DNA of 58,713 bases from Cytophagales bacterium. GTDB taxonomy: Bacteria > Bacteroidota > Bacteroidia > Cytophagales > UBA9547. Of the stretch, positions 13,958 through 26,862 are shown in pieces (within the stretch, counting starts at the first letter, position 1; each line of letters starts with the position of its first letter). The stretch lies in contig JAAFIH010000006.1 of assembly GCA_013297755.1 (NCBI GenBank), forward strand, positions 84,802 to 143,514, written 5' to 3'. The notes below the pieces were generated by a model, which saw nothing but the letters and a program-made list of their open reading frames with translations, was not told the origin of the DNA and did not search any database. The translations under genes were made by a program, and so were the position numbers.

Positions 13958-14252
13958 CTATGGTATTATTACTTTAGCAATTCCTTTGTGGGAACTACTA
14001 AAAACCTCAAATTTATTTTCAAAAACCCCACCCAAGCCAATTTCTGTTACGATGCCACAGAATCCAAAAGGGAGGGCTTTTCTACCATTACTTGGTCTTC
14101 TAGGCCAACAAACCTTTAATAAATGAATTTGTTGGAGATCTCTACTCAATTCCTTCTAGCAACACCAACAAAGTCGAAAATTTTTTTCCTATAATATTAT
14201 TACTTTAGAAATTCCTTTGTGGGAAATTCTAAAAACCTAAATTTATTTTCAA
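13958..14252. repeat. Intergenic 66-bp direct repeat with hairpin, plus one TTCTGT hairpin
   Basis: The 382-bp gap between the giant gene and the collar-domain gene holds no convincing gene. A 65-68-bp segment at 13958-14025 recurs at 14190-14252; both contain an imperfect hairpin (arms TTTAGNANTTCC and GGGAANTNCTAAA, loop TTTGT). Between the copies, at 14042-14062, lies a TTCTGT/ACAGAA hairpin with a 9-nt loop that belongs to a dispersed family in this window. A 63-codon frame on the minus strand covers the repeat but looks fortuitous. The structure could act as terminator or leader between the two minus-strand genes. Confidence 0.7.
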
Positions 14253-15216: not shown

Positions 15217-15590
15217 TTGGGTTTAATTAATTGTTTGTTTTAAGCCCCCATACCCCCGAAGGGGGCTTAAGAGCTGATTTTTTTTAATTTTTTTATGCTT
15301 TCGCATTTTTTTGCCCTCACCCCCAACCCCCTCTCCAAAAGAGAGGGGAGTAAGGATTTTTTAAAAGCCCCCAAACCCCCGAAGGGGAAATTGCGTTTAT
15401 AGGAATTTTTTTGTCTTACTCTAAATCCTTTTTTAACCCCACCCTAAATCCAATTTCTGCTCCGATTCCGCAGAATCCAGAGGGGAAAATTGCGTTTATA
15501 GCAATTTTTTTGCCTTACTCTAAATCCTTTTTTAACCCCACCCTAAATCCCTCCCCTTAAGGAGGGACTTAAAAAGCTGATTTTTTTAAT
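15217..15590. repeat. Hairpin-module mosaic, left bracket of the hepT/mntA pair
   Basis: No gene. In order: a TAAGCCCCC/GGGGGCTTA inverted repeat at 15241-15269; an ATGC-TTTC-GCAT hairpin at 15295-15306; a CCCCTCTC/GAGAGGGG hairpin within 15313-15358; then a segment of about 228 bp (15363-15590) made of AAATTGC hairpins, CCACCCTAAATCC linkers, a TTCTGC/GCAGAA hairpin (15455-15475) and a TCCCTCC/GGAGGGA hairpin. This last segment recurs in the same order and orientation at 16240-16472, on the other side of hepT/mntA. Confidence 0.8.
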
Positions 15591-15938
15591 TTATAATTCT
15601 TTATTTTCGTTTAATTTTTCTAAAACTTCCAAATATAACATTGGTAAATGTCTTTTTAAAATTCCCCAAACTATTTCATCGTCTACTTTATCGTATTCGT
15701 GTGCAATAAAATTTCTAAAAGATATAATTTTTTTAGCATTTTGAAGTTCCAGTTCATTTGCCAAAAGTCTTTTACAACATTCGCCTATAATTTCAATGTT
15801 TCTTTCGGTAGCTTTTTTAACTAAAATATTATTTTTAAAAGTATCAAAAGAATATATTTCATGGACAAAATCATTTATTTGTTCAATCGAAAGTTTTATA
15901 TCTTCTAAGTACTTTTCAATTTTATGCACTATAAACAA
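15591..15938 (-). CDS. hepT: HepT-like HEPN ribonuclease toxin
   Basis: The product of about 115 aa is an all-helical HEPN protein of the HepT (DUF86) family. It carries the full RX4HXY signature RNFIAHEY near its C-terminal third, the nuclease motif whose tyrosine is AMPylated by MntA in characterised HepT/MntA pairs. The gene overlaps the end of the upstream mntA by 17 bp, a typical two-gene toxin-antitoxin arrangement. No ATG is available: the frame opens with TTG at 15938, and a GTG at 15929 three codons later is an equal candidate. Length is normal for the family. The pair lies between two direct repeats of about 230 bp. Toxicity is inferred from the intact motif. Confidence 0.9.
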   Translation of the reverse strand: MFIVHKIEKYLEDIKLSIEQINDFVHEIYSFDTFKNNILVKKATERNIEIIGECCKRLLANELELQNAKKIISFRNFIAHEYDKVDDEIVWGILKRHLPMLYLEVLEKLNENKEL

Positions 15939-16227
15939 GTATTTTATCTTGATTGACTGATTGAATAAAATACTTATTTTGTATTGCTTTTTGACTCACC
16001 AAATCTACTTTTCGTTCAAATAAAAGTTGCAAATCTTCGTACAAGTCCAAAACATTGTCGCACACTTGTAAAGGATTTTGCTCTTTCAAAATATACAAAA
16101 GATCTATATCGCTATTTTTTTCATCAAAATTTCCATTGGCAGCTGATCCAAAAAGATATAGCTTTTCAACCCCATATTTTACACATAGTAGATTTAATTT
16201 TTCGGAATAACTTTGAATAAAAAACAT
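15922..16227 (-). CDS. mntA: MntA-like minimal nucleotidyltransferase antitoxin
   Basis: The 101-aa product matches the MNT nucleotidyltransferase fold. GSAANGNFDEKNSDID holds the GS motif and the first two acidic residues of the GSX10DXD signature, and a later acidic residue in the KVDLV segment fits the third metal ligand. In known systems MntA neutralises HepT by transferring AMP to the tyrosine of RX4HXY, and that tyrosine is present in the partner here. It starts at a clear ATG and is the first gene of the pair; its TAA stop lies inside the beginning of hepT, so translation is probably coupled. The 5' side meets repeats almost at once (from 16240), leaving little room for a separate promoter. 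Confidence 0.9.
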   Translation of the reverse strand: MFFIQSYSEKLNLLCVKYGVEKLYLFGSAANGNFDEKNSDIDLLYILKEQNPLQVCDNVLDLYEDLQLLFERKVDLVSQKAIQNKYFIQSVNQDKILVYSA

Positions 16228-16553
16228 TTTTTTATTTTTTAAAGCCCAAAAAAACCTCGAAAGGAAAAATTGCGTTTATAGCAATTTTTTTTGCCTCACC
16301 CTAAATCCTTTTAAAAACCCCACCCTAAATCCAATTTCTGCTCCGATTCCGCAGAATCCAAAGGGAAAATTGCGTTTATAGCAATTTTTTGGCCTCACCC
16401 TAAATCCTTTTAAAAACCCCACCCTAAATCCCTCCCCTTAAGGAGGGACTTAAAAGCGGATTTTTTTTTAATTTTTTTATGCTTTCGCATTTTTTTTGCC
16501 TCTCCCCCAGCCCCCTCTCCAAAAGAGAGGGGAATTAAATCTGATTTTTAAAA
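16228..16553. repeat. Right bracket of hepT/mntA and left bracket of DUF2442/DUF4160
   Basis: No gene. The part at 16240-16472 repeats 15363-15590 in order and orientation, including a TTCTGC/GCAGAA hairpin at 16336-16356. It is followed by the ATGC-TTTC-GCAT hairpin (16479-16490) and the CCCCTCTC/GAGAGGGG hairpin ending in GGAATTAAATCTGATTTTT (about 16497-16550). This last pair of modules recurs in degraded form at 17080-17160, beyond the DUF4160 gene. Confidence 0.8.
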
Positions 16554-16790
16554 TTATAATTCATAGCTATTTTTGTACAAATATTTTGGATCAAAATCGG
16601 CTTCATTTTGCCATACAACCGAATCGAATGCTACCGAAACTGTATTAAACAATGGCACATTTTTTAATTCATTAAAAATGCCATTTTCTAAATGTGGTTT
16701 CATATCAAATACTTTTACTTTTGCGTTTTCAAACGTCAATTCTAACTTATAATCTTGCAAAGGTATTACTTTTTTTACAGACCAGTACAT
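16554..16790 (-). CDS. DUF2442 family protein
   Basis: The small 78-aa protein fits the DUF2442 family: an opening segment on how the protein views its surroundings (VKKVIPLQDYKLELTFENA), a VFDMKPHL segment, and a C-terminal WQNEADFDPKYLY matching the usual W-x-x-x-x-D-ID/D-P-xxLY ending. It starts 7 bp after the stop of the DUF4160 gene, so the two form a tight pair. DUF2442 and DUF4160 genes are commonly adjacent in bacteria and have been proposed as toxin-antitoxin-like pairs; no activity is shown for either. The pair is bracketed by direct repeats (16476-16550 and 17080-17160). Confidence 0.82.
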   Translation of the reverse strand: MYWSVKKVIPLQDYKLELTFENAKVKVFDMKPHLENGIFNELKNVPLFNTVSVAFDSVVWQNEADFDPKYLYKNSYEL

Positions 16791-16797
16791 ACATTTA

Positions 16798-17064
16798 TTA
16801 TTTTAATGGGTCTATCATAAATGGTTTCTCGCCATTTTGGCACAATTTCCAATCTGCTAACAACTCTTCTCTATGTATTTCTATCCAAGCCAAAACCAAT
16901 CGCAACTGTCTAGTAGGAATTGCACCCTCCATAATTTGACAATTCTCAATATTTATTACCACAATATCATTTTGATAATGGACATGAATATGAGGCGGAT
17001 TGTGTTCTTTTGGCCCAAAGTACATTCTTATTATTATTCCAAAAAACATTGATAATGTTGGCAT
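16798..17064 (-). CDS. DUF4160 family protein
   Basis: The 88-aa product has the core of DUF4160: an opening MPTLSMFFGIIIRMYFGP, then EHNPPHIHVHYQ with its histidine cluster, and a C-terminal LAWIEIHREELLADWKL. It begins at a good ATG and is the first gene of a two-gene unit with DUF2442. The histidine-rich HIHVHY segment suggests a metal or nucleic acid ligand, but that is a guess. Function is unknown; a role as one half of a toxin-antitoxin-like pair is inferred only from size, pairing and the neighbouring hepT/mntA unit. Confidence 0.85.
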   Translation of the reverse strand: MPTLSMFFGIIIRMYFGPKEHNPPHIHVHYQNDIVVINIENCQIMEGAIPTRQLRLVLAWIEIHREELLADWKLCQNGEKPFMIDPLK

Positions 17065-17760
17065 TATAATTTAAGTTTTTATGGTTTCACATTTTTTTTT
17101 ATTCTTTCAAATCCCTGACCCCTCTTCAAAAGAGAGGGAATTAAAGCTGATTTTTAACACCACCCTAAATCCATTTTTAACCCCACCCTAAATCCCTCCC
17201 CAGAGGGAGGGACTTAAAAAGTGGATTGTTTTAATTTTTTATGCTTTCGCATTTTTTTTGCCTCTCCCCCTGCCCCCTCTCCAAAAGAGAGGGGAGTAAG
17301 GAATTTATTAATTTTTTATGCTTTCGCATTATTTAAAACCCCACCCTAAATCCATTTTCTGCTACAATGCGGCAGAATCCAAGGAGAAAATTACGTTTAT
17401 AGCAATTTTTTTGCCTCACCCCCTGCCCCCTCTCCAAAAGAGAGGGGAGTAAGGAATTTATTAATTTTTTATGCTTTCGCATTATTTAAAACCCCACCCT
17501 AAATCCATTTTCTGCTCCCATGCTACAGAAGCCAAGGGAAAATTGCGTTTATAGCAATTTTTTGGCCTCACCCCCTGCCCCCTCTCCAAAAGAGAGGGGA
17601 GTAAGGAATTTTTTAATTTTTTATGCTTTCGCATGATTTAAAAACCTGTCCCTAAATCCCTTTTTTGCTACCATATCGCAGAATCCAAAGGGGAAATTGC
17701 TTTAATCCCAATTTTTAATCTTCAAAATTGCTTTAATCGCAATTTTTAATTCATAATTCA
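17065..17760. repeat. Tandem hairpin-module array (153-bp period) with no gene between modules
   Basis: After a degraded ATGC-stem and CTCTTC-stem copy (17080-17160) and a CCTCCCC hairpin module (about 17175-17222), the module ATGC-TTTC-GCAT occurs at 17241, 17318, 17471 and 17623. The last three intervals of 153 and 152 bp each contain, in order, CCACCCTAAATCC, a TTCTGC-type hairpin (17357-17377, 17510-17530, 17663-17683), an AAATTGC/GCAATTT hairpin and, in the first two, the CCCCTCTC/GAGAGGGG hairpin. The array ends with two more AAATTGC-type hairpins near 17694 and 17728. No coding potential is seen. Confidence 0.8.
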
Positions 17761-18254: not shown

Positions 18255-18812
18255 TCAAACAATTATAATATCTAACATACCTTTCTGATCTGTCATATAA
18301 TCTACTGCACTGCTATAAAGCCAATGCTGCGGTTCTGCTACAAAACCAGCCTCTACTGGGTTTTGATGAATGTATGTTAGCTTCTGCTTAAATATTTCAT
18401 TTGAATCCAACACAATAGGATGGCTATCTTGAATCCAAAATTGAAAATCTGTATTGTTGCTATTCTTTATTCCTGCCCGTTGCATCATCCAATACATCCA
18501 CTCTCTTCTACTTTCGCCTACGGCATTTTGGTCTTCTAATAATTTGCGAATACTCCTTGATGTAAAACTTTTGAAATCTCTAACTGTCCCTACCAAATCG
18601 TTTGTACCATCACTACCTATAATCATGTGTATGTGGCTTGTCATCAAACACCAAGCATATACTTGTAAACCTTTATTCTTTTGGCAGTATTTTATGCTTT
18701 CTAACAACACATTCCGATATTCATTTCTTATAAAGACATCAATCCAGTTTATAACCGTAAACGTAACAAAATATAGCTTTTGCTGATCTTTGATTTTGTT
18801 TTTTCTGCTCAT
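18255..18812 (-). CDS. REP-associated tyrosine transposase (Y1_Tnp, RAYT), copy 1
   Basis: The 185-aa product belongs to the IS200/IS605-related Y1 transposase superfamily in its REP-associated (RAYT) branch. The HUH motif is SHIHMII around residue 60 and the likely catalytic tyrosine is in KLTYIHQNPVEAGFV near residue 150; this YxxxNP(V)xAG ending is typical. Such enzymes nick and join single-stranded DNA at REP hairpins and are single-copy housekeeping-like or spread with REPs. REP hairpins flank the gene on both sides in inverted orientation. A second copy at 26305-26862 differs at only a few residues. The gene looks intact from ATG to stop. Confidence 0.92.
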   Translation of the reverse strand: MSRKNKIKDQQKLYFVTFTVINWIDVFIRNEYRNVLLESIKYCQKNKGLQVYAWCLMTSHIHMIIGSDGTNDLVGTVRDFKSFTSRSIRKLLEDQNAVGESRREWMYWMMQRAGIKNSNNTDFQFWIQDSHPIVLDSNEIFKQKLTYIHQNPVEAGFVAEPQHWLYSSAVDYMTDQKGMLDIIIV

Positions 18813-25466: not shown

Positions 25467-25660
25467 TTTACTGCTGTATTTTAAAGTAATTTATTGTTTT
25501 TAATTGTTATAATTGATGGTAAAAAACTCCTAAATTAATGGAGTAATTTTTTTGCCTCACCCCCTACCCCCTCTCCAAAAGAGAGGGGAAGTAGGAATTT
25601 TTAAATTTTAGAATTTTATTTCATAATAACCATTCTTTATATGCCGAAAATTAAAAATTA
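25467..25660. repeat. Gap with CCCCTCTC hairpin module
   Basis: The stretch upstream of the sorting-domain gene has an ACTCC/GGAGT hairpin near 25527-25545 and then one copy of the GCCTCACCCCC...CCCCTCTC-CAAAA-GAGAGGGG module at about 25553-25600, the same module seen six times at 15.3-17.6 kb. No gene is seen. Confidence 0.75.
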
Positions 25661-26304: not shown

Positions 26305-26862
26305 TCAAATAATTATAATTTCTAACATGCCTTTCTGATCTGTCATATAATCTACTGCACTGCTATAAAGCCAATGCTGCGGTTCTGCTACAAAACCAGC
26401 CTCTACAGGGTTTTGATGGATGTATGTTAGCTTTTGCTTAAATATTTCACTTGAATCCAATACAATAGGATGGCTATCTTGAATCCAAAATTGAAAATCG
26501 GTATTGTTGCTATTCTTTATTCCAGCCATTTGCATCATCCAATACATCCACTCTCTTCTACTTTCGCCTACGGCATTTTTGTTTTCTAATAATTTACGAA
26601 TACTCCTTGATGTAAAACTTTTGAAATCTCTAACTGTCCCTACCAAATCGTTTGTACCATCACTACCAATGATCATGTGTATATGGCTTGTCATCAAACA
26701 CCAAGCATATACTTCTAAACCTTTATTTTTTTGGCAGTATTTTATGCTTTCTAACAACACATTCCGATATTCATTTCTTATAAAGACATAAATCCAGTTT
26801 ATAACCGAAAACGTAACAAAATATAGCTTTTGCTGATCTTTGATTTTGTATTTTCTGCTCAT
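26305..26862 (-). CDS. REP-associated tyrosine transposase (Y1_Tnp, RAYT), copy 2
   Basis: The 185-aa product is a close copy of the protein at 18255-18812, with a handful of changes (for example IYVF for IDVF, ENKNAV for EDQNAV, QMAG for QRAG). The HUH motif SHIHMII and the KLTYIHQNPVEAG tyrosine segment are intact. It is again flanked by REP arrays in inverted orientation. Two near-identical full-length RAYTs within 8 kb are unusual, since RAYTs are mostly single-copy; local duplication or gene conversion would explain it. Homologous recombination between the copies could remove or duplicate the 7.5 kb between them. Confidence 0.92.
   Translation of the reverse strand: MSRKYKIKDQQKLYFVTFSVINWIYVFIRNEYRNVLLESIKYCQKNKGLEVYAWCLMTSHIHMIIGSDGTNDLVGTVRDFKSFTSRSIRKLLENKNAVGESRREWMYWMMQMAGIKNSNNTDFQFWIQDSHPIVLDSSEIFKQKLTYIHQNPVEAGFVAEPQHWLYSSAVDYMTDQKGMLEIIII

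Follow-up and report, generated by a model that had tools for sequence, protein, structure and literature searches.

Palindromic modules of an intergenic mosaic in a Cytophagales genome resemble the inverted ends of DUF559 nuclease genes

A stretch of 58,713 nucleotides from the genome of a Cytophagales bacterium (assembly GCA_013297755.1, contig JAAFIH010000006.1, positions 84,802 to 143,514), here called the window, contains at positions 15217-17760 a mosaic of short palindromic repeats. It is made up of three composites, at 15238-15572, about 16240-16538 and 17103-17747, built from six hairpin modules, all on the plus strand. Three of these modules are compared below with the ends of elements that carry a DUF559 nuclease gene. 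M1 consists of a CCTCACCCC tag and a CCCCTCTCC hairpin, M2 of a CCCACCC tag and a TCCCTCC hairpin, and M3 of AAGCCCCC followed by CCCCGAAGGGG, with the hairpin CCCC-CGAA-GGGG. M4 combines the M2 tag with a TTCTGC hairpin; M5 is an AAATTGC hairpin and M6 the hairpin ATGC-TTTC-GCAT. All the hairpin types named in a preliminary description of this DNA were found; its "at least five families" are real hairpins but number six, and CCACCCTAAATCC, which it took for a linker, is the 5' tag common to M2 and M4.

Small minus-strand gene pairs lie between the composites. The first, at 15591-16227, encodes a HepT-like protein and a nucleotidyltransferase; in the second, at 16554-17064, the first gene (16554-16790) is presumably DUF2442 and the second is DUF4160. 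Relatives of these pairs in congeners have 67-75% DNA identity. The next gene after the mosaic, at 18255-18812 (-), encodes a RAYT transposase (PF01797), as does 26305-26862 (-). No known RNA family reached its gathering score between 14800 and 18900.

Profiles of the modules gave 30 matches (E<=0.01) in the 2.5 kb of the mosaic, every one in the plus orientation, a number that is partly circular since the profiles were built from window copies. Elsewhere in this genome, a 400-kb sample yielded 17 independent matches at 14 distinct places; it comprised 20 stretches from contigs already in the match lists, which if anything inflates this background. One copy of each module was folded, and all folded better than shuffled sequences (z -2.3 to -5.0). 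At 17249-17706 three head-to-tail units of 153, 152 and 153 bp (100, 94 and 86% identity to unit 1) form an array that contains no open reading frame longer than 50 amino acids, in agreement with the gene-free intervals of 153 and 152 bp reported earlier. The array consists of one composite repeated in tandem. Composites have grown in this way at another place as well, where units of about 50 bp made of M3 and M5 form a tandem (C67:92400-92826).

The modules are independent units that have been joined, as first proposed, rather than the decayed remains of one long repeat: M1 also stands alone at one place in the window, and M4 at three places outside the mosaic and in 13 matches of the 400-kb sample. 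The idea that their order is freely shuffled has to be given up. M4 is followed by M5 in 5/5 places, and two blocks, M4-M5-M2 and M2-M6-M1, are found twice each, from which it appears that composites have partly been copied as blocks. The origin of M4 may be seen at the right end of an element in leuS, in orthologous positions of two congeners. In one (L100) this end is a plain M2 palindrome, whereas in the other (L106) one arm has been swapped, in frame, for a TTCTGC hairpin; M4 can therefore be regarded as an M2 that has acquired a second-order hairpin.

The comparison with DUF559 started from the assumption, afterwards tested, that genes of this family lie near GGAGAGGGG repeats. The window genome has one DUF559 match, in frame within leucyl-tRNA synthetase (LeuRS) and between inverted M1 modules. 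M1, M2 and M3 resemble the inverted tag-plus-hairpin ends found around genes for DUF559, a Vsr-like PD-(D/E)XK nuclease. Terminal inverted repeats scoring at least 30 points were present at 52 of 74 named DUF559 loci and at 5 of 168 control open reading frames from the same loci (p 3e-25); 80 named loci had been retrieved, nearly all labelled Bacteroidota, and 74 of them scored. Removal of three loci (L165, L203 and L205) that were also present in a second set, drawn from the order, left 49/71. This order set consisted of the best 30 loci by protein score, 29 of them scorable; with inverted repeats sought within 350 bp, 23 of the 29 reached 30 points. As a positive control, 8/9 RAYT loci of the window genome did so. 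Records from a plasmid collection extended the search beyond the Bacteroidota: 43 records of Cyanobacteriota, Deinococcota and Pseudomonadota matched, and 8 of 16 loci chosen from them, for which there were no separate controls, reached 30 points (Deinococcota 2/2, Pseudomonadota 6/13, Cyanobacteriota 0/1, where the one locus had 27 points and ends resembling M1). A further 37 DUF559 relatives were retrieved from viral contigs.

The modules of the window themselves occur on both flanks of DUF559 genes: M1 at 32, M2 at 12 and M3 at 9 of 111 loci, against 0/278 control pairs for each. With duplicates dropped and the 99% cut-offs recalculated from the reduced number of controls, the counts were 39, 18 and 13 of 108, with 0/266 among controls. 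Genes with M1, with M2 and with M3 flanks are all present in the window's genus. The end repeats are alike within each locus and unlike between loci; matching ends that differ between loci of different lineages are expected if enzyme and ends co-evolve.

Many DUF559 domains lie in frame within larger genes. Among 114 order-wide matches at E<=1.2e-22, 50 were in open frames of at least 300 amino acids and 40 in frames of at least 700; hosts were identified for part of the 50. Pfam scans of 16 frames gave LeuRS (9), PurL-type GATase_5 (3, with DUF559 at the C-terminal end), methionine synthase (MetH, 2), an IleRS-like protein (1) and N-formylglutamate amidohydrolase (1). Long frames were also seen at 62/80 named loci, a biased figure since the query came mostly from such genes, and one in which a lower limit of 250 amino acids for frames at contig ends admits uncertain cases. 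Within these 62, the LeuRS editing domain was found by Pfam in 23/25 members of group A4. The 37 others, group A3, contained class I tRNA synthetase domains (12), the RecG wedge (7), UvrD (3), GATase_5 (3), chorismate synthase (2), MetH (1) and aconitase (1), among the best 25 of 48 families listed. The probable RecG cases, assigned by frame length, have inverted-repeat scores of 18-24, and for this reason some DUF559 copies look old or domesticated. These seven copies, probably within RecG-like helicases, have no flanking palindromes (L140, L143, L145, L168, L189, L204 and L206).

Three genomes of the window's genus were compared: the window genome, G020 and G065. In metH an M3-flanked DUF559 gene is present in G020 and G065, and the window genome has a short linker at that place. 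An M1-flanked DUF559 gene occupies ileS in G065 only. At one LeuRS site, the window genome agrees with G065 in 91% of the host sequence that precedes the insertion and in 46% of the insert itself, and the ends are of type M1 in one species and M2 in the other, which points to replacement, or to independent entry at one site. The inserts have dN/dS of 0.14 and 0.08, compared with 0.06 and 0.03 for their hosts, and are under purifying selection. The start of the LeuRS editing domain carries, in the three species in turn, M3 as an inverted pair, an M3-like palindrome on its own and M2 on its own, and their ValRS genes have differing palindrome-encoded peptides at shared sites. Since the same genes are occupied or empty within one genus and a single site holds different palindromes, there is good evidence of mobility.

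The methionine synthase of the window genome (L265 107-5971 +, C3:5706 on; L226) also has an in-frame insertion of another kind, three similar copies of about 190 amino acids with a weak likeness to PBECR3 (E 1.3e-6, 28.7 bits, where the cut-off is 30). PBECR3 is a phage-Barnase-EndoU-ColicinE5/D-RelE-like nuclease. One similar-looking copy, without a Pfam match, lies at the same place in G065, and none in G020.

Short elements with two inverted M1 ends were found among the close opposite pairs of the matches listed, at least 14 of them, 112-223 bp long, in five genomes. Together with 23 elements that contain DUF559 they make up 37 M1-type elements. The DNA directly outside these is self-complementary at 6.05 of 14 positions, compared with 3.95 in permutations; outside the first three bases, which are perhaps part of the ends, the figures are 4.03 of 11 and 2.95. 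This is more than chance gives, and hairpins may at times be the favoured targets. Strong self-complementarity is rare (4/37 reach 8/11), with near-perfect palindromes at L212, L213 and L216.

On a wider scale, DUF559 was found by Pfam in 91 of 194 genomes of the order. The exact M1 pattern has 898 copies in the 194 genomes and the reversed pattern 1. M1 is present in 43/91 DUF559-positive and 8/103 DUF559-negative genomes (within-family permutation p 0.0035), and all 12 genomes with at least 20 M1 copies are positive. The Pfam labels are incomplete, because G045, a negative genome with 14 M1 copies, matches the A1 profile of DUF559 (E 2e-12).

Positions D44, E55, D57 and H61 are invariant in an alignment of 29 DUF559 domains and probably form the active site, which we take to be of the Vsr type. 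A DUF559 profile matched two solved structures, 3hrl, an endonuclease-like protein (E 3e-33), and 3r3p, a "mobile intron protein" (E 9.9e-7). The Caulobacter DUF559 protein VsrA is described as required for the DNA damage response in cells without cytosine methyltransferase, and is interpreted as a mismatch-repair enzyme (PMC12907096). That requirement makes cutting in vivo plausible, although VsrA points to a different function. In the literature consulted, short of most subscription papers and bioRxiv, no link of DUF559 to palindromic repeats or to tRNA synthetase insertions was seen.

Several known systems share part of this picture. Repetitive extragenic palindromes (REPs) and their RAYT enzymes (REPtrons) likewise have short tagged palindromes in many dispersed copies, inverted pairs and a nuclease gene between its own palindromes (PMC6006769; PMC3733652). 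This layout, a nuclease gene between inverted copies of its dispersed palindrome, is found here with a different enzyme (52/74 and 23/29 against 5/168): DUF559 is a PD-(D/E)XK Vsr-like protein and not an HUH (Y1) transposase, the tags are C-rich (CCTCACCCC, CCCACCC, AAGCCCCC) and not GTAG, and insertion into genes, in frame, involves the complete element with its gene. Palindromes in frame in protein genes, seen here in LeuRS, ValRS, IleRS and MetH among the three congeners, recall REPs of the CGTC class, for which no transposase is reported (PMC3733652), and Rickettsia palindromic elements (RPEs), which are described from metabolic genes (PMC10969869); for RPEs the likeness lies in the in-frame entry. 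CGTC REPs were considered as the DUF559 palindromes and set aside: a motif search and reading of the 16 non-Bacteroidota loci found scattered CGTC motifs and no flanking CGTC-type palindrome. The pairing of a CGTC tag with A-T pairs at the stem foot was not seen in a flanking palindrome of these loci, and some elements have GACG a few bases past a C/G-rich stem. Profile matches and the invariant acidic and histidine positions connect DUF559 with Vsr and with Vsr-fold homing endonucleases (3r3p). Unlike the latter, the elements have palindromic ends, and no intron or intein was seen at them. Miniature inverted-repeat transposable elements (MITEs) are also short and non-autonomous with inverted ends; here the ends are themselves hairpins, and no target-site duplication was found at the 37 elements. 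The elements thus have the layout of REP/RAYT, the gene entry of RPEs and the site re-use of homing endonucleases, and by the tests made belong to none of them.

We propose that the composites are stacked ends of the DUF559 type (M1-M3) together with three accessory hairpins (M4-M6). On the strength of the sequence comparisons it is moderately probable that the mosaic consists of nested solo copies of tag-plus-hairpin modules, of which M1-M3 are of the DUF559-element end type and are, or once were, moved by DUF559. The nuclease would nick or cut the DNA where it recognises a C-rich tag with its hairpin, probably in the form of a cruciform or a folded strand. Copying repair or strand transfer would then carry the element, or in trans a short non-autonomous copy, to a new site, sometimes within or beside another hairpin. 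We infer this action on hairpins, as well as the preference for certain targets, movement in trans and the step of copying. Intergenic insertions would pile up, nest and then duplicate in tandem, giving the composites and the 153-bp array of the window. In genes, insertions would survive only where the frame is kept, as DUF559 domains or palindrome-encoded peptides inside LeuRS, IleRS, ValRS and MetH, or at the end of PurL. At least some of M4 would arise when a TTCTGC hairpin takes the place of one arm in an M2 palindrome.

A number of results weigh against this proposal. The modules of the window are single same-direction copies and not inverted pairs. The single DUF559 gene of the genome lies on another contig and is M1-type, so that there is no cognate enzyme for the M2 and M3 copies. 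M4, M5 and M6 were on both flanks of DUF559 in 0/111 loci (0/108 without duplicates). No inverted repeat above the cut was present at 22/74 named loci, and the 80 named loci were drawn by the A2 profile of seven proteins whose loci mostly bore palindromes. Target-site duplications of 8 lengths between 2 and 10 nt showed no significant excess at the 37 M1-type elements (lowest p 0.05, at 6 nt). M3, with 506 copies in 16 genomes, is not significantly correlated with DUF559 (11/91 against 5/103, within-family p 0.26), and in G061, from a family in which 9/15 genomes have the gene, neither Pfam nor the A1 profile (E<=10) finds DUF559 beside its 235 copies of M3. G027 (16 M1) and G031 (11 M3) likewise have no DUF559 that was found; when six Pfam-negative genomes were rechecked with the A1 profile, five gave no credible match. 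Given the correlation and G061, some other enzyme may move M3, or M3 may persist after its enzyme is lost.

The first alternative is that another enzyme, a RAYT/HUH transposase or some other, moves the palindromes, with DUF559 as a passenger or as a homing endonuclease that invades existing pairs. We consider this unlikely, though far from negligible. It would accommodate the short palindrome pairs without DUF559, the M3-rich G061 and the ten RAYT matches of the window genome, one of them a gene about 500 bp from the mosaic. At nine RAYT loci of that genome, however, the palindromes are different ones: M1-M4 are under the cut-off at all nine, and the short, AT-rich M5 and M6 come near their cut-offs with none above (M6 equals it at L008). 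RAYT as the mover of M1-M6 is thus unsupported in the window genome, and the own matching ends of DUF559 loci, different from lineage to lineage, also count against this alternative.

A second alternative, that ordinary short repeats or terminator hairpins were gathered by slippage and recombination without a dedicated enzyme, seems improbable. Runs of T follow several hairpins, and the tandem array and block duplications do amount to local recombination. Against it, terminator-like sites in 15217-17760 are not in excess (1 observed, 1.9 expected in shuffles), which rejects transcription terminators; orthologous genes of congeners have different modules at the same sites; and modules are tied to one gene family when compared with controls. 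The integron-like row of empty cassette sites suggested in the preliminary description, prompted by the regular 153/152-bp spacing and the small gene pairs between composites, is hardly credible, as 15217-17760 has 0 copies on either strand of GTTRRRY / RYYYAAC, which we take to be the attC core, the array units are copies of a composite, and three congener loci with relatives of the small genes (L337, L340 and L341) have as sole module a single M4, which lies in L340 at about 290 bp from the match, so that neither integron cassettes nor module-flanked travelling gene pairs are supported.

Present annotations give DUF559 either as a domain whose function is unknown or as a repair enzyme of the Vsr type. 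To our minds the balance is even on a broader proposal: that DUF559 and its ends may represent a cross-phylum class of mobile elements, a PD-(D/E)XK counterpart of REP/RAYT, in which a Vsr-like nuclease co-evolves with C-rich tag-hairpins, moves itself and short copies, repeatedly enters the same tolerant loops of essential enzymes in frame, and is the source of much palindromic intergenic DNA in Bacteroidota, the mosaic included. An abundant class of bacterial repeats would then gain a candidate mover, and a large set of unusual essential enzymes, tRNA synthetases and methionine synthases among them, would be explained as in-frame homes of a selfish nuclease. The DUF559 insertions would also show, from nature's own trials, at which places large enzymes accept additional domains. 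The modules and array units are listed in Table 1.

Table 1. Positions of the modules and array units in the window
Feature	Position	Strand	Evidence
M3 (AAGCCCCC tag, CCCC-CGAA-GGGG hairpin)	15238..15264	+	nhmmer E 4e-4; fold z -3.8
M6 (ATGC-TTTC-GCAT hairpin)	15286..15309	+	profile match
M1 (CCTCACCCCC tag + CCCCTCTCC hairpin); DUF559-end type of window genome's own leuS element	15311..15356	+	profile match, leuS-element comparison
M3, 3' end fused to M5	15361..15388	+	profile match
M5 (AAATTGC hairpin)	15388..15410	+	profile match
M4 (M2 tag + TTCTGC hairpin)	15436..15482	+	profile match; possible nested origin, L106 vs L100
M5	15486..15510	+	profile match
M2 (CCCCACCCTAAA tag + TCCCTCC hairpin); DUF559-end type of congeners' leuS element	15534..15572	+	profile match, leuS-element comparison
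M5	16266..16290	+	profile match
M4	16317..16363	+	profile match
M5	16366..16389	+	profile match
M2	16415..16453	+	profile match
M6	16470..16493	+	profile match
M1	16495..16538	+	profile match
M1, diverged	17103..17146	+	profile match
M2	17179..17217	+	profile match
M6	17232..17255	+	profile match
Array unit 1, order M1-M6-M4-M5	17249..17401	+	repeat comparison, profiles
Array unit 2, 94% identical to unit 1	17402..17553	+	repeat comparison, profiles
Array unit 3, 86% identical to unit 1	17554..17706	+	repeat comparison, profiles
M5, last module of composite	17724..17747	+	profile match
M1, solitary elsewhere in window (L015)	25551..25595	+	profile match
M4, outside mosaic	14025..14067	+	profile match
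M4, within MITE-like repeat L023	33871..33914	-	profile match
M4, within MITE-like repeat L030	42202..42243	+	profile match

Three minor observations concern other repeats of this genome. The RAYT matches (L001-L010) form three or more groups, and every group has palindromes of its own (GGTGCAAGC..GCTTGTACC; CGCCCTCGTTTGCAACGGGGGCG; CGAAGTCTGGAGACTTCG); L010 has none that is clear. A MITE-like repeat has the M4 hairpin in the middle of the element (L023, L025, L026, L027, L030, L032, L033, L034 and L038), and most copies have the ends TATAT..AACCGAAAA and TTTTCGGTT..ATATA. Short tandem-repeat runs, TTGATTATTGATT, AACTTATAACTTATAAC and TTAATTGTTAATTG among them, adjoin modules at L020, L022, L029, L035, L039 and L040.

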